NCBI GenBank assembly: GCA_034670405.1
Contig: JAXDDX010000181.1
Span: 682,001-746,000, forward strand
DNA length: 64,000 bases
Direction: 5' to 3'
From: Hoplostethus atlanticus
Taxonomy: Eukaryota > Chordata > Actinopteri > Trachichthyiformes > Trachichthyidae
Position numbers and translations under genes: made by a program. The notes under the pieces are model-generated. The model did no database searches and was not told the origin of the DNA. It was given only the letters and a program-made list of their open reading frames with translations. Shown piece after piece: positions 3,801-59,600 of the stretch (positions within the stretch are counted from its first letter, which is position 1; every line of letters begins with the position of its first letter).

Positions 3801-6800
3801 GTCGGGAGTTTTTGAATGTGAAGTCGTGGTGAGTGTATGAAAGGGCTGTAAGGCACGTGCTAGGGGCTGCTAGGTTAATATAGCCACATGCTCTATGTAC
3901 AGATGGAGACGAGGCCTAGGAGTCACTTTCTTCCCACGCTACGACCAACGGTTTTTGCCTCTTTGCCGTAGCGATCCGTATGGAAGCAGGTGGGCGCGGG
4001 GCTGTGAGTGGGCGAGAGGGGGTCTCAGTGGGCGGCGGGTCATGGATCTGGGGTTGACGAAAACACCAGAATCTCCCACAGTAGATAATGGTTGCTGAAT
4101 GTGGTCCTCAGTGTGTAGGAAGAGAGCTGGTTAAACTTTAACCAGCCCCATCCTGTTCTCCACACCCTCCATCAGCCAGCCAGAGCCGGGGCCCAGCCCT
4201 ACAGCCCCTCCACCCCCACTGACCCCCACCCTGTTAGGGACAGAAGTGATGGATCGCCCCTGTCATTGTGCCCTGTGAGGGGACCGCGGCTAAGAGGGAC
4301 CCGGGCTCCTTGTTAATCTGACCCTCCGAGCCAGAGTGGACAACGCAACACATTATGACAACCCCCCTCCCAAAAACAAAAAGAGAACACATGGCATGTA
4401 ACTAAACTCACCCGCCTACATATAAGACCCGGCACTCTCCCCCTATTCCTTTTTATTCAGTCTATTTTCACCCCCAACCCTCATAAACCATTAGAGGAAT
4501 GCCTTAGAAGCTCGGTCTGCTTGGCGAGGAGTATAAAAAGAACAGAGAAAGTTGGAGAGAAAGAGAAAAATGAGAGGCGGGGGAGAGAGACGGCGAGCAG
4601 CTGTGTGGAGTGACAGGACGCGGCGCAGATGAGTAATGGCGCTGGACGAACTCGCGATATTGACGAGCGATCAGTCATATGCTGATGTTGTCTCCGCTCC
4701 ACCACGTGTTCACTTGCATAGGGTCTTGTAATATTACCACTGTTTTTCTCTCTTGATTATGAGGAAGTGATACATCAACCTGATAGGGGACATAAAGATG
4801 ATTCTAAGTGGTTCATATACACATTCAACATATATATAACACATCATTTCTTTTTTGTATTTATGATAATAAATAAAAAACATTTACCAATTCACAGGAT
4901 TGGATGTAACTTTCCCTCAAGAAGAGATCCAGTGAATTAGTAAGTATAGTTTATTTGAATTTCTCTTTGACGTCTTTAACAAATTAATAAAACAACAACA
5001 ACAACGCTGCATATGAACCTCTAATATAATTTTTTTTCTCCATGTGACTAAAACACGTTCTCACTACTTTAGCATCATAAAGTATTGATGACTTCTTCCC
5101 CCATTCTACAGGAGCATTTGTATATTAAAGAATGAAATGCTTGCCATTTGAATTAAAGTCAGTTCACAGATTATGACAAAAGAGAAAAAAATCAAGCTCA
5201 TTTGTAACGGCCCTCCCCTTCATTATTGTACGTTTCCCTTGGGGTGTGTTGGCAAAGTTAATTTTACTGGTTGGTTAAGGGAACAGGATGTCAAGCCCTC
5301 ACACGGAAATGTAATGATGCGAAGGACATGGGTCAAATTTACCATTTGTAGGGTAAAAATCTTGAATCTGTTCTTTTTCCCATCTGTGACAGTGGGGTCA
5401 GCTCCAACCATCTGGGTCTGGAGTGGAGACATGGGTTGTCAGTGGGCAACAGAGAGGGGGCCCCATATTGCCTGGGCCCAAGGGCTTGATCATGGATGGA
5501 CATGTGTGTGTGCATGCGCATGTGTGTGTGGGTGGAGGGATTGACACACACACGCTGCACCTCTTTCTCAGCTGACTCTGAGAATATGTTTGCGTGGGAC
5601 AAGTCCACCAAGACCCATCCATCAACCGGGTCCAAATACGCCCTGCGCCACTGTTGACACGAGGTTAACAACTTGACACTGACAGAGGTGGGCGCGGCCC
5701 GGGGCAGAATGGTTACCGAGACAGAGAGAGAGATGGATTGGAGCGTGATCGACATTCAATTTGAATTATTGCAAAATATTTCCATTTAGCTGAAAATTGA
5801 GTACATGATCAAGTCTACACGCTACAATTGAGAGTGACTTTCTTGTGTGTTGTACATGGACACGGTTTGAGAGGAAATCACACACAAATTGTATCCGTTT
5901 CCAGTGACTGTTCAGCATTTAATGGGGCAGAACTGAAAACAAACACTGGTGTATCTTCTCGTGACCTTGTCCTTGAGTATTACTCTGGCACTAAATAGAC
6001 AAGCGGGTCCACTAGCCAGAGATAAGTTCAGTTGAAATCTTTCATGGAAACATTAAACTTCCTTCCTCCCTGTAATCACTGTGCATTATCACACATTAAA
6101 CATACACTAATGTACTACTGATCAATGTTGTGGTAAGGCAACAACCAGAAAGTGATTAAAAACATTTAGGGAACAGTGATTATAACCTACTTTCTAGGCT
6201 ATGTGGGCAACAGAAACTGCACATAAAGTTGTAAATCAGAGTAAATAAACAGGTCAGGATGTCAGGAAGGTTCCCAGCCAATAGAAATAGAGAAGGTAAA
6301 TAAATCTGTGAGTGGCTGTGGCAGGGATGCAGGTAGAGGAAAGCACTAGGGAAATGTAGCATAATCTCAGCCTCAGCCATGTTATCAGCTGGGCTTTTTA
6401 ACACAGGGGCCAATTTAATTGCACTTAAAGCAGAATGGCAGAACATCAATCTTGATGAGTGGATCTGCATCACAGTTCTCCCTGGCCAATCTATCACCAT
6501 CCATGCCTCTGGGTAGCCTCCCCCTAACACACACTCACATGCCCATACTCCCTCCTCATCCCATCTGCACTTTCCCATCATGTGCTTTTTTAAAAATGTT
6601 TCATATGCGTTGTTTAAATGTTATGTTGGGGCACATTTGGGGAAAAACTATGATATAAAAGCAGGAACCGTGTTTCTCTAATCTTCTTCTATGCGTTGAG
6701 AGCCTGCTGGTGATGCCACCGCTCAGAGATAGAGCTGTTTTCACACTTGCCCTTGTAATGCCACAGCGCCGTGTGAAATCCTGTCCAGAAATGGCTCTGC

Positions 6801-32249: not shown

Positions 32250-32257
32250 GAGAGAAG
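32250..32257. repeat. left 8-bp target duplication of the hAT element
   Basis: GAGAGAAG directly abuts the CAGTGGCGGCTG end. The identical octamer follows the right end at 38367-38374. Confidence 0.88.
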
Positions 32258-32704
32258 CAGTGGCGGCTGCTGCATTTTTCTCCAGGGGGGGCTATACCAA
32301 AAATCAAGCAAACATGTACTAAGTTATCATCAGTGTATTTAAATAAATGAAAAGGCCTTTATTTGTATTTGCTGAGCTGTAAAACATTTAACTGTAAAGT
32401 AACATGACAAGGAATCAGGTGTGGGCTGCTGATGAAAATGCATTCTCATCATCTTGCAGATGCCTCCTTGTTTTCGAAAAGGTCTGCAGTGGAAGGATCA
32501 GCCCCAATGGATCAGCCCCAAAACAAGACATTTCTGTAGGCAATATTGAGAGTTTTGTTCCAAAATGACAAAAAATGACATGCACACTTATAAAACGATT
32601 GATGGCACAAAATTAAAACAAAGAATAGTAGATCCCTTGGTTTATACAAATACACTTGTACAGATAGAATCCACAATGTATTTAGTTTAAATGTATTTAG
32701 TTTA

Positions 32705-32716
32705 AATTTATTTGTA
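32705..32716 (-). terminator. poly(A) signal of the 366-aa gene
   Basis: On the minus strand 'gtacaaataaatttaaacta' follows the stop by roughly 25 nt and contains AATAAA. This close spacing means a very short 3'UTR. Confidence 0.6.
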
Positions 32717-32737
32717 CATGACAATAAGCATAATGAT

Positions 32738-34003
32738 TCAAGTACGATTTGCATTAGAGGATTTGCTGTTCTTCTTTCGCCTGAAGAGACGGAAGAGCCA
32801 AGAGAAGCAGCCAGAATTCTTCCTCTCTTTCTTTGGTTTTGAAGCGGTGAGCTCAACGTTGGAACAATCAAGTCCTGCAGGGTCGAGCCCTTGGACGAAG
32901 TCTCCCTCCTCCTGTGCAGTGATACTGCTGTCAGGCCCAGCACAGAGCAAAGTAGTGACATTGTTTTTCTCATCACACTCAGGATTTGCATCTTCATGGA
33001 CACTTGTGGCACTTTCATCAATTGGATCACTGGCAGAAAACATGACTTTGTCTTCCTTGAGGACCACATGGTCTTGGCCCTCTTCCTCTTTTTCCAAGTC
33101 TGAGAGGAACTGCATTGAGTCAGAATCTGCTGTGACGACTGGCTCCCATGTATCAAGCTGGTTTATATACGGCCCACAGGGTGAAGAGCAGTCAACCACA
33201 AATCCAGATACATCAGATGAAGGAGCATAGAAGTACTTTTCACCAAGTACATTCTTGCAGTATTCATACACGTGGTCTTCTAGGTCACCAATGCAGGATT
33301 GCTGCAGCAGCCTCCCAATGAGCTCTATGGTCTCACTGGTTTGCGCCATGCTGAATGAAGCCTCAGCATCTCTGAGCAGGTTGGATGGACTCTCGGCGTC
33401 CTGGGCTGGATGGCTGCATGGTTCAGCATTTCCTGAAGTCTCGTCCTTAGCTACGAGAGGTACGTCTTCCTCTGCGCTGACTACTGGTTCCCAGATGACT
33501 CTCAGACTCTCAAGTCCACAGGTAGATCTTGAGCCTACGGTTGGCTGAGCAAATGGGGACAGGGCACAGTTGAGCTCAACAGCGTATTCAGAGATAGAGG
33601 CTGGAGCATAAGCGTATCGTCCCTCCCAATGGTCTTCAGCTGAGGTGGGCTGAGCAAATGGAGACAGGGCACAGTTGAGCTCAACAGCGTATCCAGAGAT
33701 AGAGGCTGGAGCGTAAGCATATCGTCTCTCCCCATGGTCGTTGGCTGGGATGTAAGCCATGAATTCGTCGTCATCACCTTTGAGGGCGTTGAGGCGAATG
33801 ACTTGATCCATCCACGCTGAAAGAATTGAGACAAGGTATGTCAGCATGTTAGCAAAAACATTTAGCTTCATCTTTTATCACACAGAGACAATTAACCAGA
33901 CAGTAAAGGAACTGGCTGGCAAGAATGTTTTAGGATAGTAGATCTGTTTAAAAAAGAAAAATACAAGTAGATTTGTCTTACCTGGACAGAAATTCTCCTC
34001 CAT
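32738..34003 (-). CDS. unrecognised 366-aa protein carried in the hAT element, two exons
   Basis: I do not recognise this family. Exon 1 (34003-33982) encodes MEENFCP and ends CCAG|GTAAGA. Exon 2 (33816-32738) starts after TTCTTTCAG in the matching phase, and the 1,079 bases stay open to the stop, giving 366 aa. The start MEENFCP avoids the upstream-of-acceptor ATG that an unspliced reading would use. Visible features are two nearly identical 35-residue repeats around 'RYAYAPASIS.YAVELN' and a diverged third ('KYFYAPSSDVSGFVVD'); two WEPVV(S/T)A motifs; an acidic middle (KEEEGQDHVVLKEDK); and a short basic and aromatic C-terminus (SGCFSWLFRLFRRKKNSKS) that could contact membranes or nucleic acid. 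There is no signal peptide. An AATAAA (minus strand) lies about 25 nt past the stop, so the transcription unit is compact. It lies on the same strand as the transposase remnant. It may be captured host DNA or an element-specific accessory gene. Confidence 0.72.
33543..33752. repeat. 105-bp in-frame tandem duplication
   Basis: 'ggctgagcaaatgg' starts at 33543 and again at 33648, and the two 105-bp units are nearly identical along their length. The period is exactly 35 codons, so the reading frame of the 366-aa gene is kept. Confidence 0.9.
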
Positions 34004-34099
34004 AATTGCTTTTGTTAAATGAATGCAATTATAACGGTTTGCTAACTAAGACAATGAAATCGCTGTTTCTTTCAGGTTGGTAGAGTGAAGTCTGAAGCT

Positions 34100-34190
34100 C
34101 TGAGTTTCATCTGGTGCCCATTGTGTCTCTCAGAATGTCATGATGTCACAGCCAATCTGAGCTCTCGGCACACATTTCATCACACCCAGA
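34100..34190 (-). promoter_or_regulatory. promoter motifs upstream of the 366-aa gene
   Basis: On the minus strand 'cagattggctgtgacatcat' combines an inverted CCAAT box (GATTGG) and a CRE/AP-1-like TGACATCA, about 150 nt upstream of the ATG. Paired CCAAT and CRE-like sites are common in proximal promoters. They suggest the gene carries its own promoter within the transposon. The transcription start is not known. Confidence 0.4.
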
Positions 34191-34344
34191 GTCAAATGGT
34201 CACTAATGAATAAATAAAAATACTAATAGATAAAAATAATCCCTAATAGAAAATGAGGGAAGCAAATATCAACAAAAAATAAACTAACAATACTAGCTGC
34301 TTTATTTTCTGCAGAAGCTGTAAAGGCTTACTCACCACTATGTC

Positions 34345-34350
34345 CATGAC
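34345..34350. repeat. left 6-bp target duplication of nested element
   Basis: CATGAC immediately precedes the TATGGGGG tip. The same hexamer follows the other tip at 37104-37109. Confidence 0.65.
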
Positions 34351-34837
34351 TATGGGGGCCCATATGTGACACTCAATAATCAATTGGTCAATAGATAAAT
34401 CAATTGATAAATCAATAATCAATCAATTAATAAATTAATAAATGTTCAAATACATGCATAAATAGATAAAACAATAGACAAATGAATCAACAATTTGACA
34501 ATCCAAAAATAAATTGATAAATGAAAGTATAGATGAACAAATTGAGAAAATAATATTTAATTCACCATTTGATAAATAAATTGATAATTACATTTTTAAT
34601 TGTTCTATTCTCTATTAATGCTTTACCTATTGATCAACTGATTATCTATTGAACTACTGTGTCAGGAGGTGGGACCCAAACTGCTGTCAATCATTTGATG
34701 TTACAGAAGCTGTCATTGGTCAAAGCTGTCTAGCTGTATCAGAGAGGGTCAAATGGTTTGATAATTTTCTGGGGTTTTTAGCTGCGACCAGCTGCAGCTC
34801 TATAGCTCGCTCTGTTGGTCGGTCGGCCGATCGGTGT

Positions 34838-35076
34838 TTATGCAGAGTTCTGCATGCACGCCGAGATGTGCATGCCCACCACAGAACATTGGCTTAACTA
34901 CAAGCCAACAGTCACTGGACGCTATAATGTTTTGTGAAGAGAATTCTTATTTTTATACTAGTACGAACCTTCACTGTTATTCATCAATTACGATATATAG
35001 TCACAAAACATTATAGCGTCCAGTCACCGCTGGCTTGTAGTTAAGTTCCGCGGTGCGCATGCAGAACTCGGCATAA
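34838..35076. mobile_element. 239-bp palindromic (MITE-like) element
   Basis: The left arm runs from 'ttatgcagagttctgcatgc' to 'cgctataatgttttgtga'. The right arm is its inverse, from 'tcacaaaacattatagcg' to 'gcatgcagaactcggcataa'. The arms are about 75-100 bp with a ~63-bp loop; the left arm has about 25 bp extra. It lies inside the larger nested element, making a third level of insertion or a hairpin belonging to that element. No clear target duplication is visible. Confidence 0.65.
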
Positions 35077-35619
35077 CACCTGACAACCGGAGTAGATGGT
35101 CGACTCTCGGTTGGCTGCTTTCCTTAGCAACCAAGATAAGTCAGCCATTGGCGTTTTATCAAGAAAAACTTCTCTCAAATTTAACATTGACCATGCAGAG
35201 CACTGAGCAAGTTCATATGTCAGTGTGTGAAGTGTAACCTTTCTGTAACCACCTTTGACCAATGACCAAAAGGGTCCAACTGCAGACCTCCTCAGGCCCC
35301 TCTCTCCCTGCTGGTCGGAGGAAGTATTGTATTTTCTTTCAGAAGTCAATTACCAGGTCATAGTTCACAAAATATATATATATGTGTATGAGTGACTTTT
35401 CAATCATTCCAAAATACGGGATAAGTATGAGCTCTGAAGCTCCACAAACTTCCATTACACTGAGTAATGGAAGTTATGTAAAACCTATCAGATTAAAACA
35501 TCACAGATTCCAGTGTAGCTGCAGGCGGTGATTGTAGGGGTCCAAGCACACCTTGAAAAAGAGAAAACATTCACAACACAGTAGGTAGGCTAATGGTTCC
35601 AAACAGTTTTATTCTATCA

Positions 35620-35901
35620 TTACATAACATCTATCTTCGTTTCTACATGTTTCCTAAAGCTTGCGCACACTGGAATGTCAACAGTGTCTCTGACTTCAGA
35701 CATGAGCAAATCACAGTCATCTTGACGTTCAAACTCAAACAAAAAATTCTCCATCAATTCCTGACGTTCTTCATCGTATGCTTCAAGCAGTTTTTCTTCG
35801 ACTTCCTTTTGATGTCTTGATCCCAACATGAGATAGGAAGGTTCATCTACTTTCCCTTTCAGCCGGTGGAGGTTGTTTCTCCCAGGATGTGCTCTTGCCA
35901 T
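35620..35901 (-). CDS. unrecognised 93-aa ORF in the nested element
   Basis: I do not recognise this protein. The ORF begins MARAHPGRNN in a strong context (ACCATGG), directly after a good acceptor ('gtttttgtcttgtag'), so an upstream 5' exon is likely. A possible donor, CCT|GTAAGT, lies near 36190 on the minus strand. The protein is charged and probably helical, with a Glu-rich middle (QKEVEEKLLEAYDEERQELM) and FEFERQDDCDLLMSEV. It has no signal peptide or zinc-binding pattern. The stop is followed within about 6 nt by AATAAA (minus strand 'tgatagaataaaactgtttg'), so the transcription unit is again very compact. It could be the last exon of a longer protein. Whether it belongs to the element or was captured is unknown. 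Confidence 0.5.
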   Translation of the reverse strand: MARAHPGRNNLHRLKGKVDEPSYLMLGSRHQKEVEEKLLEAYDEERQELMENFLFEFERQDDCDLLMSEVRDTVDIPVCASFRKHVETKIDVM

Positions 35902-37103
35902 GGTCTACAAGACAAAAACAGTTTAAAGTCCTCTTACAGTGATCCATAGAAACAGTTCTACAGCTCTAAACATTTGTCACCAACATGTTTTTTTTTCTTG
36001 ACTACAACATTTTCATGCAACCTTTTGCCTATGGAAAAACGCAAGGTCAACTGTAACCTGATTTGTGTTGCCATAGGCACAGTTTTCATAGAAGGTGCTA
36101 GAGACAGAGTAATACAGTACTGGTGAAGAGAAACATACCAATGTTGTTGCACACATTTGGACCATCTTTCCTCATTCTCTTCACTTACAGGTACATTGTG
36201 TCAGGCTGTTGCTTCCCTTGAAAAACATGAATAGTCATCTTAGAATTGCCTTAACCCAAGAAACAATATAAATAATCAACCATGGACAATTGCATAGGTA
36301 TACTACAGCTTATTACAATGCTTAACATTAGCTGAGGGTCACTACAAAAGTGTATTTTTAGATGAACAAAAGTCACAGGCTGTGCCATTGATCATAGAAA
36401 TCAAACATAATGCAGGCAAGCGGCACCCTATGACTCCGTCAGGATCCTACAACTAACCCCATTGTAAACTGCAAGCTAATGTTAGCTAACTCGCTAACCT
36501 CACTAACCTCTATGGGAAATTATAGTAGTAAGCTAATAGGCTTGCAGTCGGATCCGTACGTAAATGCATTTTCAACCACAAAGCGTTTATTCTGAATACA
36601 AATATGAACACATTATCAGCGTTATTGTAATATTTGATGACATAAAGTAGTATCGCCTCAAAATTGTTCAGAAACAGATTTTGGTGGACTGCTGAAGTGA
36701 AATAAGTGAAAGTTTACGCATTTGGGTCCCACCTGCTGACACAGTAGTTCAATAGATAATCAGTCCATCAATAGATAAAGCATCAATAGATAATACAACA
36801 ATCGAAAATGTAATTATCAAATTACTTTGCTATCGCATTATGAAAACATTTATTTTCAATTGCATTATCAATGTATTCATTAAACGAGGAATTAGTTATT
36901 CTTATCTAAATTTGTTCATCTATTTATACTTTCATTTATCAATTTATTTATTTATTTATTATCAAATTGTTGATTCATTTGTATTGTTTTATCTATTTAT
37001 GCATGTATTTGAACATTTATTAATTTATTGATTGATTATTGATTTATCAATTGATTTATCTATTGGCCAATTGATTATTGAGTGGCACATATGGGCTCCC
37101 ATA

Positions 37104-37109
37104 CATGAC
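37104..37109. repeat. right 6-bp target duplication of nested element
   Basis: CATGAC immediately follows the inverted tip CTCCCATA and is identical to 34345-34350. Confidence 0.65.
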
Positions 37110-37639
37110 TGCTCATCCATGAGCATTAAGAATCTAAGAGAACATAAGAGACAACATAGACAACAGAACAGACTAGTTATAGTGCATACATACAACATGG
37201 GTCTGGTCAGAGAGGCTGACTTAGACAGTTATGCGAATTTTCCAGGTTTCACAATCACAATTCTGCAATCCAAATTTCAGTCAGAAGTAAAATTAAAGAG
37301 ATTAAAAAATTTGTATTCACATTGCATCATAAACTTAAAATTACAACATTTGTTGTAATGAAACGTGCTTAAGGTAAGTTAAGGTACTTCAATTAGTGCA
37401 AATTCTTTATAATAATTATCTTTTATACTACAATATGTAATGGTGAAAGACTAAAGTAACCGAAAACACAAAACCCTGAGACAATGGCAGAAAATTATGA
37501 ACACAGTAAGTCCTAATAGAAAATAACATTTGAAATACCCAGTGCCATCAAAAAGCTGAGTGAACTGGCTCAAATCCATATGACTTTGCCACCTTGTGGC
37601 TTAAACTTTTTGTACATACATTTTTCTCAATGACTCTAT

Positions 37640-37998
37640 GGCACCACAGAACTTGACACAGTTTATTATTTTAGACAGGATGTGCCTGTTTTTGTCAACC
37701 TCTTCATTATGCTTACACATCCCTATCCTGTAGCCTTCATCAAGCTGAGCAGCTATGTTTACTTTCCCAAATATTTGCTTTTGTTTTTTCTGATATGTGG
37801 TTTAAATCATTCAAACCTGTCTGAATCCATGCTAGGTCTGAGACCTGTCGTTTGAAAAAGGATGCAGGGAAAGCAAAATAAAGCATTGGTGTCACTACAT
37901 ACAGTTAGCCAAGCCTTCCTACTAAACCAGCTCCTTGAAAACGACTGAGTATATTGTCTCATTCTGGCACATTTTATGTCAGATGTACCACGAGCCAC
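37640..37998 (-). pseudogene. hAT transposase N-terminal fragment, broken
   Basis: The minus strand encodes a TTF-type (ZMYM1-like) zinc-finger segment, 'SRKAWLTVCSDTNALFCFPC', matching the N-terminus of vertebrate hAT transposases. Homology continues as TGFNDLNHISEKTK in another frame and then NIAAQLDEGYRIG and HNEEVDKNRHILSKIINCVKFCGA in a further frame, so at least two frameshifts are present (near 37815 and 37745). Similarity stops abruptly after FCGA and the catalytic domain is absent. This supports the hAT assignment made from the terminal repeats and shows the copy is not autonomous. Confidence 0.8.
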
Positions 37999-38366
37999 TC
38001 GCTCTCTGCTGCCAACCAGTGGTTGGTGGTGTGTAAATCAGCAGCATTCAGATAATTGCTGTTGGCTCCTATCTCTTGTATTGAAGAGGAGTGAACTGCG
38101 CATGTACAACTTTTAACGAGAGTCAAAGATTCTTGCGCCCCAGGCTGGAAATACGTGACCTAGCAGTAACTTTAGACAACGTAGAACAATTTGAATCTAC
38201 ATTTTATTGCAGATTATACATTTTACTCACTAACTATATAATATTTACCTCGCTCATTTAAAAAAAAAAAATTCAAAGTAAATTTTAAAGTCTTATTCAA
38301 TGAAGTCTAGGATGTGGGGAGTGGTGGGGCGGCGCCCTAGTGCCCTCTATTGGACAGCCGCCACTG

Positions 38367-38374
38367 GAGAGAAG
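38367..38374. repeat. right 8-bp target duplication of the hAT element
   Basis: GAGAGAAG directly follows the CAGCCGCCACTG end and is identical to 32250-32257. Confidence 0.88.
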
Positions 38375-56600: not shown

Positions 56601-59600
56601 AATCTCCTCAACAGCCATGGTGTGTCCACCAGCAACCATGCATACTTGGGAAAAACACCAATCTTCTACCTGCTTAATCATTGTAACGTAATGCATTGTA
56701 ATGTATACACACATACACAGAAACACACACACATACACAACAGCTCTAAATTCTACAAAATGAAATCACCCTTACGTCCAACATCTTCTGTCATTCACTT
56801 TCAAGTGAAGATGGATTTTAGAGCTACGAGGGAGCAATATCTCAGGACCTACATTAATCTGATCTTAGACATGCCATAGCTCCTTGTGCTTTTGTGGGAG
56901 TAAGTAAATAAGAAAGAATGAGAGAAATGTTGAATCTCAATCTCAATCCTAATTTCCCATGATTAGCAGGCCCTCCTAATGCTTATCTCTAATATCAAAA
57001 TGCATATCCACAATCAGAGAGACTCTAATTACCCTACTCTGCCACCATTTGACCTGGCCTCTGAGCACCATCTCCCACTGAGGAACAGTTTTAGGTTGCT
57101 GAGTATGATATCACCCCACCCCACGTCTGCCTCCTGAGTTGAGCCCCTGATTGGCGGTCGGCCCATTCTGCGGTCAAAGGACAGCCAGAGCTAGGCTCTG
57201 TGCTCTTTATTTAACTCTCCATCTCCATCTGCTCCCAGCTCTCAGCCAAGGTTGGTAAACCCTCGCTTATCCCACAACAGAACGGATGGTCCTATCCTAC
57301 CCAACTGGGTGCTCTGATGAAAACCCTGACCAGATGGAGCAGCGCGGTACCAGACGCCTATGGCAGGGGCTACGGACTATAACCGACTACCAGGGCAGAC
57401 CCCCCGCAATTGTGAGTGCCGACGCATCCCTAGCGGACGACCTGAACTCATTTTATGCACGGTTTGAGGCTAGCAACAACAGCGCTAGCTCGCCGGCTAA
57501 CAACATCACTGTTAGCGCAGCCGAAGTGAGTTCTACCGCTGGGGATGAACACACGCTCTCTGTGACCGAGCACAGTGTGAGGAGGGCTCTGACGAGGGTG
57601 AACACCAGGAAAGCTGCTGGTCCAGATGGCATATCTGGGCGAGTACTGAAGACCTGTGCTAATCAGCTAGCTCCAGTGTTCACCACTATATTCAACATCT
57701 CCCTGGCTGAGTCTGTGGTCCCTGCCTGCTTCAAGAGATCCACTATTGTCCCTTTGCCCAAGAATGCTTCTCCAGCATGCTTGAATGATTATCGACCGGT
57801 GGCCCTCACCTCGGTGGTCATGAAATGCTTTGAGAGGCTGATAAAGGACTACATCTGCGCCTTCCTCCCTTGCTCCATGGACCCGCTGCAGTTTGCTTAT
57901 CGTCCAAACAGATCCACGGATGATGCTGTCTCCCAGGTACTGCACACCACACTCTCTCATCTGGACAGCCGGAAGGGGGGCTATGTGAGACTGCTGTTCA
58001 TTGATTATAGTTCAGCTTTCAATACCATAGTCCCCACCAGACTGGCTGGCAAGTTGATTGAGCTGGGACTGAACACCCCCCTGTGTGCCAGGATCCTGGA
58101 CTTCCTGACCGCCAGGCCCCAGGTGGTCAGGGTGGGCAGACACACCTCCAACCCCCTCACCCTGAACACAGGATCCCCCCAGGGTTGCGTCCTCAGCCCC
58201 CTACTGTACTCCCTGTACACACATGACTGTGTGGCCAGGTTCAGCTCCAACTCCATCATCAAGTTTGCGGATGACACAGTGGTGGTGGGCCTGATCTCCG
58301 ACAACGACGAGAAGGCCTACCTGGAGGAAGTTGCTGATCTGTCACTCTGGTGCCAGGACAACAGCCTCCTCTTGAATGTCACCAAAACTAAGGAGCTGAT
58401 TGTGGACTTTAGGAGGACACAACAACAGAGGACGTACTCACCATTGGGGATGAATGGGACTACTGTGGAGAGGGTGAGCAGGTATAAATACCTGGGAGTC
58501 CACATCACCGAAGATCTCACATGGTCCACACACACTGACACTCTGGTGAGAAAGGCGAGGCAGCGCCTTTACCACCTCAGGCAACTGAGGAAATTTAAAG
58601 TCTCCCGGAGGATCCTTCAGTCCTTCTACTCTGCAGCTGTAGAGAGCATCCTGACAGGAAGCATCACTGCCTGGTTTGGCAACAGCTCCGCTCAGGACAG
58701 GAAGGCTCTGCAGAGAGTAGTGCGTTCGGCTGAACACACTATTGGAACTACACTCCCCACCCTGCAGGACTTATACACCAGGAGGTGCAGAACCAGAGCC
58801 TGCAGGATCATGAAGGATCCTCACCACCCCAACAACGGACTGTTTCAGCTGCTGCGGTCAGGCAAGCGCCTCCGTAGTCATGCTGCCAAAACAGAGAGAC
58901 TGAGACGGAGTTTCTTTCCTCAGGCCATCAGGACTGTGAACTCTGACCTCACCAGGGCCCCCACCAAGACCCACACACTGCCCCTCTTATGCACACACAC
59001 ACACTCACACACTTAGGTAGCGACTACACATAATTTATATTATATTACATACATACGATTTCCCTTTTTTACTATATTTTTATTTCCAAAGTGCTCTTAC
59101 TGTAAATATTGTGTTGTTTTTTATATAGAGCTCTTACTGTAATATTGTAAATATTGTGTTGGTTTTTTATTGTAAATAGTGTGAACCTGTTATTTTGTTC
59201 TTTGCACATTTCTGTTGAGCATTGCCACTTTTTACATTTCACTGCACACCCCGTGTGTGTATGTGACAAATAAACTTCTTGAACTTGAACTTCTTGAACC
59301 TTCTGGAGGTCGTTAGCTCTGTAATGAATGTGGAAATTCCTAATGGCATCACTTTCTCGGGTGCCAAGGTCTTAGACATGAATGTTAATATCCCAGCTCT
59401 AATTGATCTATAGCCAAGTGTGCACCCAGTTATTACTATGTTGGCTCTAATGACACCAGACAATCTGAGAAACTGCACAATGACTTTGAGGTACTGACTA
59501 CGACTGTGGAGAGTCTTGGGAAGAACTGCATAGTGTCTGGCCTCATCCCAACTCATGGACATGAACAGGATACACATCCTGCCCTCTAGACACTATCTCA

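Follow-up and report, generated by a model that had tools for sequence, protein, structure and literature searches.

A hAT-type transposon family without a working transposase carries a spliced gene in Hoplostethus atlanticus

Our analysis supports the presence, at positions 32258-38366 of a 64-kb stretch of Hoplostethus atlanticus DNA (the whole stretch is called the window below), of a hAT-type insertion that has no working transposase and carries a spliced gene. In our reading (probability roughly 0.8), this copy belongs to a hAT family that is young, non-autonomous and multicopy and whose passenger gene, with two exons, is complete; in kind, such a family is a Pack-hAT. Copies at different places have common ends and 8-bp duplications, and the intron-bearing gene lies inside two-ended copies. 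In the window, the element begins with CAGTGGCGGCTG (32258-32269) and closes with its exact reverse complement (38355-38366), giving exact 12-bp terminal inverted repeats. These were the only two exact matches to CAGTGGCGGCTG in the window, in which about 0.008 would be expected by chance (2 x 64000/4^12). A perfect 8-bp target-site duplication adjoins the two ends. Both features are those looked for in a hAT element, namely an 8-bp duplication and short terminal inverted repeats that start with CAG. The coding sequence lies between transposon ends without a working transposase, as is characteristic of Pack-TYPE elements such as Pack-hATs; the gene carried here may be host- or transposon-derived.

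The family was delineated in the species' own genome (G000, 632.8 Mb). A search with the whole interval gave 1331 candidates, of which 40 were scored, the window among them, leaving 39 other places. These matched the outer parts of the interval, mostly as pieces within positions 1-2094 and 4884-6109, and some matched only partly. The 38 loci fetched from this search held 39 gene copies (L024 has two), or 40 with the window. Both hAT ends were present in 20 of the 38 loci (21 places with the window), and the order and orientation of the gene sequence were alike in all 20. Their 8-bp flanks were perfect at 15 loci, had one mismatch at three and did not match at two, and the two-ended gene-bearing copies were 2.4-3.6 kb long, with one at 5.2 kb. 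The gene thus travels regularly within a multicopy family whose members share their ends and are flanked by 8-bp duplications of their own. An earlier interpretation, made from the letters of the window alone (the sequence-only reading), had proposed testing whether copies with the same ends always hold the gene; the 20 two-ended loci hold it, and gene-less relatives and copies of the gene outside the hAT also exist. The GT and AG of the intron were both kept in 36 of the 40 copies (L039, counted here, lacks the bases after the GT), and the gene therefore spread at the DNA level. The mean identity over the gene region was 96.7% (36 copies). Of 218 candidate places in a genome search with the protein, 113 were scored and gave 155 matched stretches, some of them in copies without hAT ends. 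A second cluster of gene matches, with two copies 2.2 kb apart, was seen on C201.

The 6.1-kb interval is built of three layers: the hAT element, a gene block of about 2.4 kb in all, which includes the 5' and 3' flanks of the gene, and a 2.75-kb nested transposon. Its features are as follows (no strand is assigned where none is given).
32250-32257: left copy of the perfect 8-bp target-site duplication GAGAGAAG, from the window sequence
32258-32379, plus strand: hAT left end, with the 12-bp inverted repeat CAGTGGCGGCTG and subterminal sequence, common to gene-less short elements
32380-34350, minus strand: gene block, part 1, not present in the 1.1-1.3-kb gene-less elements, from comparison with these
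32738-33816, minus strand: exon 2 with stop, 1079 nt, holding two 105-bp coding repeats, from the window sequence and copy comparison
33817-33981, minus strand: GT-AG intron, 165 bp, from the window sequence and copy comparison
33982-34003, minus strand: exon 1 of the 366-codon gene (ATG and 19 nt; 22 nt), from the window sequence and copy comparison
34345-34350: left copy of the nested element's 6-bp duplication CATGAC (7 bp counting the next T)
34351-37103: nested second transposon, 2753 bp, ends TATGGG...CCCATA, itself multicopy
34351-34680 and 36721-37103: long imperfect inverted arms of the nested transposon, about 330-380 bp, about 77% identical
37104-37109: right copy of the nested element's 6-bp duplication CATGAC
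37104-37344, minus strand: gene block, part 2 (5' flank of the gene), its border with the hAT part approximate in the window copy
37345-38366, minus strand: hAT right part, with the broken transposase N-terminus and the right inverted repeat, from genome and window comparison
37807-38037, minus strand: 76-amino-acid (aa) open piece of the transposase remnant, with the same open-frame length in all listed matches but four
38367-38374: right copy of the 8-bp target-site duplication GAGAGAAG, from the window sequence

The two-exon open reading frame on the minus strand comprises 366 codons plus stop and is intact in the window copy, and AATAAA occurs about 25 bp past the stop codon. The exact inverted ends, perfect 8-bp duplication, intact spliced frame and poly(A) signal of the sequence-only reading were thus all found again. 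Two of its other points need correction. The interval described as one element does have hAT ends and the gene, but 34351-37103 is a separate transposon; the region called promoter-like, between the gene and the transposase remnant, is broken by the nested insertion, and none of four TATA or CCAAT words turned up when the 342 bp upstream of exon 1 were scanned in a simple way. The 366-aa protein gave sub-threshold matches only in Pfam and no match in PDB or among viral contigs, and its single-sequence AlphaFold model was uninformative (mean predicted local distance difference test score 34; no fold search was made). Two in-frame 105-bp coding repeats (35 aa) occupy 33539-33748 and make up a minisatellite within the coding sequence of the mobile gene; the copies have one to three such units, and one partial copy has less. 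At the nested site, other copies read ATGGATGAGCAGTCATGGACATGGTG and then GTGAGT on the minus strand, by eye a possible upstream exon and splice donor. In the window this possible exon is split by the nested element (37104-37130 and 34330-34344, minus strand), and its reading phase does not directly fit exon 2.

The nested transposon sits in the 5' flank of the gene and entered the window copy later. Its unbroken target could be read in 30 of the 38 other loci, the remaining eight being without the region or too diverged. Without the nested element and one duplication, the interval becomes a hAT of about 3.35 kb, similar to its relatives. The middle of the interval is not common to the other loci, save for weak or short stretches (an insert in L013 and short matches in L024 and L027), and the nested transposon has relatives of its own in the genome (40 of 421 candidates scored), a longer one lying at C17:73176-78869. 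Its 6-bp duplication may be a sign of the IS3EU superfamily. It contains a 94-aa open frame (35620-35904, minus strand) without a Pfam match. Many genome matches to it cover its interior only (positions about 1020-2302, window about 35370-36652), as though it housed a third element. L013 carries a distinct insert akin to this interior (about 4330-5952) at another site, with CCTAGC on both sides.

The transposase N-terminus was found broken, as the sequence-only reading had described it: a frameshifted remnant lies at about 37601-38037 on the minus strand. Its 76-aa open piece had a match at all 150 scored places (866 candidates) with 95-100% identity, and among the matches listed the open frame was 76 aa except in four (79, 103, 128 and 211 aa). 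Since the piece is open to the same length nearly everywhere, the decay of the transposase is a family trait, identical across copies and older than the window copy. Judged by open-frame length, there was no complete transposase among the 150 scored places. The 211-aa frame on C57, the one of these four that was fetched and considered as an autonomous partner, was on inspection another remnant; L071, L063 and L067, considered as longer relatives, gave no sign of a longer transposase and appear truncated. What was found in the family is an N-terminal remnant, without the dimerisation domain of a hAT transposase. Non-autonomous hAT members have no transposase, and the window family, being without the transposase domain, is therefore filed as a non-autonomous hAT member only.

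Short relatives without the gene were identified by a search with the right end, in which 40 of 777 candidates were scored; nine were the window or gene places already listed, and 22 of the remaining 31 were fetched. Complete gene-less elements with the same ends, 1.1-1.3 kb long, were present at 17 of these 22 loci and consist of about 1.1 kb from the right and about 120 bp from the left of the hAT, the left part being 46 bp long in L053. Their 8-bp flanks were perfect at 10 loci, had one mismatch at three, were matched with a one-base offset at two and were absent at two. The other five loci had no readable left end in the fetched stretch, and two of them (L052 and L054) show the gene-block junction. 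L061 and L062 look like a single insertion counted twice. In 16 of the 17 gene-less elements (L053 deviates) the left and right hAT parts are joined at the same point, and exactly this point is occupied by the 2.4-kb gene block in gene-bearing copies, with microhomology of at most 2 bp. A tree of the right ends (46 sequences, midpoint rooting) placed 14 of the 17 gene-less copies in one 18-member clade (support 0.92), which is not basal; the remaining nodes are weak, and the tree therefore does not decide between entry of the gene into a short element and an origin of the short form by deletion. Elsewhere in the window, a 585-aa open frame (57259-59016, plus strand) resembles by eye the reverse transcriptase of a long interspersed nuclear element, and a frame like it was seen close to the gene-less element in L051.

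Relatives of the gene were also found outside the hAT. Three of them (L047, L048 and L049) are 81-86% identical in DNA over their main stretches and, in the 3.5-4.0 kb retrieved for each, have no hAT ends. The homology of L047 and L049 begins some ten bases inside the left hAT/gene junction, at position 133 of the L009 element, and the sequence beyond this start is unlike the hAT left end. As the 3' flank of the gene relatives differs from the hAT left end, the hAT/gene junction looks derived. L047-like sequence was mostly on high-numbered contigs (C569, 36 kb; C388, 95 kb), and C451 holds diverged gene relatives as two units 4.1 kb apart (a 4.1-kb repeat); L047 (on C569), C451 and C388 are possible remains of the source locus. 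Some gene-block copies share a different left flank of about 240 bp; in a search that scored 40 of 51 candidates, matches to it longer than 100 bp occurred at 13 gene places. Four of those fetched, L022, L023, L030 and L042, have this alternative left flank together with the hAT right end. Part of the alternative flank is also present in the L047 group. Because of the alternative left flanks and the homology limit in the L047 group, the hAT left end appears to have been joined secondarily to the 3' flank of the gene. The gene is accordingly not exclusive to the hAT: some copies have the other left flank, and some lack hAT ends in the stretch retrieved. The alternative left flank runs from near CAGTCTGATCCTAAATC in L022, L023, L024, L025, L030, L042 and L044, and the neighbouring sequences differ. 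By eye, the flanks of L022 and L023 match at 7/8 bases, as if a cryptic end had served transposition; L022 conflicts with the shared GTCTG bases. L024 (on C25, with two tandem copies and open frames) was considered as the native gene but not supported as such, its right flank being largely another repeat.

These data bear on whether the gene might be an old and proper component of an accessory-gene hAT lineage, the gene-less 1.2-kb elements being its internal-deletion derivatives. The clustered and non-basal position of the gene-less copies in the right-end tree, the 2-bp microhomology (TG) at the short junction, which suits deletion, and the uniform gene order and orientation in the 20 two-ended loci are all consistent with such a lineage. 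It is harder to reconcile with gene relatives whose flanks are different and which lack hAT ends in the stretch retrieved, with a junction that looks derived (the 3' flank of those relatives differs from the hAT left end), with replacement and silent changes that show no constraint (see below), or with the lack of a complete transposase, by open-frame length, at the 150 scored places. We regard it as possible, with the odds clearly against it.

Selection on the reading frame was assessed in the gene copies, which were called intact when they had the ATG, the full first exon, no frameshift and a single terminal stop. Fourteen of the 40 copies were strictly intact (about 16 under a looser reading), and 26 were broken, many by frameshift. 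The substitution test covered 294 of the 366 codons (repeat codons excluded) in 36 of the 40 copies (four with missing exons were dropped), with the noncoding spectrum as the expectation. Singleton variants comprised 122 replacement, 47 silent and 1 stop change versus 135.6, 40.8 and 5.9 expected, and shared variants comprised 65, 21 and 2 versus 110.7, 44.8 and 7.1. The deficit of replacement relative to silent changes was not significant in the singleton or the shared class (p = 0.09 and 0.85, respectively), and no clear excess of changes was seen at third positions of the gene. At each of the three codon positions, the coding part had fewer shared changes per site than the noncoding part (about 0.10 versus 0.16), and 3 stop-creating changes were seen versus about 13 expected in the tested codons, a count outside which lie further stops in the excluded repeat codons. 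The scarcity of shared changes in the coding part and the few stops favour some constraint. The ratios of nonsynonymous to synonymous substitution rates (dN/dS) against three diverged relatives were 0.61, 0.70 and 1.05. Overall, the gene shows no clear constraint, with weak hints of it, and we attribute the open frame in the window copy to the recency of the burst (as the mean identity indicates), not to selection.

A functional cargo, whose protein would aid the element (in transposition or in escape from silencing) or the host, with selection keeping the frames open, could claim the 14 intact copies, the shortage of stop-creating substitutions and the two lower dN/dS values. We nevertheless consider it unlikely, given replacement/silent ratios that do not differ from the noncoding spectrum in either class, the lack of a clear third-position excess, the 26 broken copies with their many frameshifts, the dN/dS of 1.05 against the third relative, and a stop count that excluded the repeat codons with their further stops. 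Slightly less probable still is an accessory protein that raised the spread of an otherwise dead hAT (for example, via transposase or silencing), under selection confined to a few source copies and invisible in the burst. The sequence-only reading had taken an open frame kept beside a decayed transposase as a hint of function or of recent capture; as a sign of function it is not supported, as the decay is family-wide, 26 of the 40 gene copies are broken, and replacement and silent changes fit the noncoding spectrum. Its broader inference, a captured gene or an accessory one, stands insofar as the element is a hAT with a regular gene cargo, but not in treating the kept frame as a functional sign. 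That a host gene happened to lie between hAT ends from separate insertions, for which the sole argument is the size of the interval, is practically excluded: here and at 15 other loci, a perfect 8-bp duplication flanks identical ends that enclose this gene sequence, and 20 other loci carry both ends, which refutes this scenario, named in advance by the sequence-only reading as one of its own points of failure.

Several observations weigh against the reading of the family as a Pack-hAT with a passenger gene. No native source gene was found among the fetched gene relatives (L047, L048, L049 and L024), and the transposase-piece search of the genome (150 of 866 candidates scored) found no autonomous partner. 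The transposase remnant, its read-through piece included, had no match in Pfam or PDB; the end sequence, the 8-bp duplications and a presumed resemblance to hAT proteins suggest that it is a hAT transposase. Gene-bearing copies are not nested within gene-less ones in the tree, and the short form may have arisen by deletion instead of having received the gene. The combination of the hAT right end with another left flank is unexplained by simple capture, and the low number of stop-creating changes also counts on this side.

With a passenger gene in a Pack-hAT, the history would be as follows. A related autonomous hAT would supply transposase in trans, which would mobilise the entire unit through cut-and-paste transposition. 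A less secure part of this history is that the gene block, about 2.4 kb with its flanks, may have been fused between the hAT ends via template switching or repair. The gene would be a passenger, its frame still open because the burst is recent, without selection holding it.

The open-access literature yielded Pack-TIR (terminal inverted repeat) and texim precedents and, among the entries listed, no report of the window hAT family. Helitrons have no inverted ends and make no target duplication. The texim genes of a fish Helitron resemble the window family in that a gene was captured and mobilised by a DNA transposon, whether in service to the element or as a passenger being unclear; they encode an SGNH hydrolase, unlike the present hAT-borne protein without a Pfam match above the cut-off (PMC4021074). 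Multicopy Pack-TIRs of animals were described as rare, with four cases in 100 genomes, one of them being 291 bp of 5' untranslated region in three places, and template switching plus transposition was proposed for the multicopy cases (Tan et al. 2021, PMC8277862). Like the window family, they have hAT ends around non-transposon gene sequence and distinct duplications, as in Pack-hAT-N8_XT, and a fly case has 2-bp microhomology at one breakpoint, as at the junction here (PMC8277862). Unlike them, the present family carries a whole spliced gene with flanks at 21 two-ended places, with gene matches at 113 scored places. Ssk-FB4 of Drosophila is likewise a nearly complete gene repeatedly moved by a non-autonomous DNA transposon, but it is termed a Pack-MULE, has four copies and shows proteomic support and signs of positive selection, whereas here there are more copies and no sign of selection (PMC8277862). 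Among hAT elements, Tip100 (ends CAGGGGCGGAG, 8-bp duplication) matches the window ends at 8 of 11 terminal bases with equal duplication length, but is autonomous with an 808-aa transposase, in contrast to the remnant and cargo of the window element (PMC12511174). The window ends may, by end similarity alone, be called Tip100-like.

As an event, the family is of a known kind, but its scale is uncommon: both its cargo and its copy number exceed those of the precedents. Intact copies resemble small spliced genes and could pass as a gene family expansion in genome annotation. The spread by a hAT family of an entire gene, complete with intron, 3' processing signal and 5' flank, to tens of places would also be a good natural test of the effect of cargo on transposon spread and of the seeding of new gene families.

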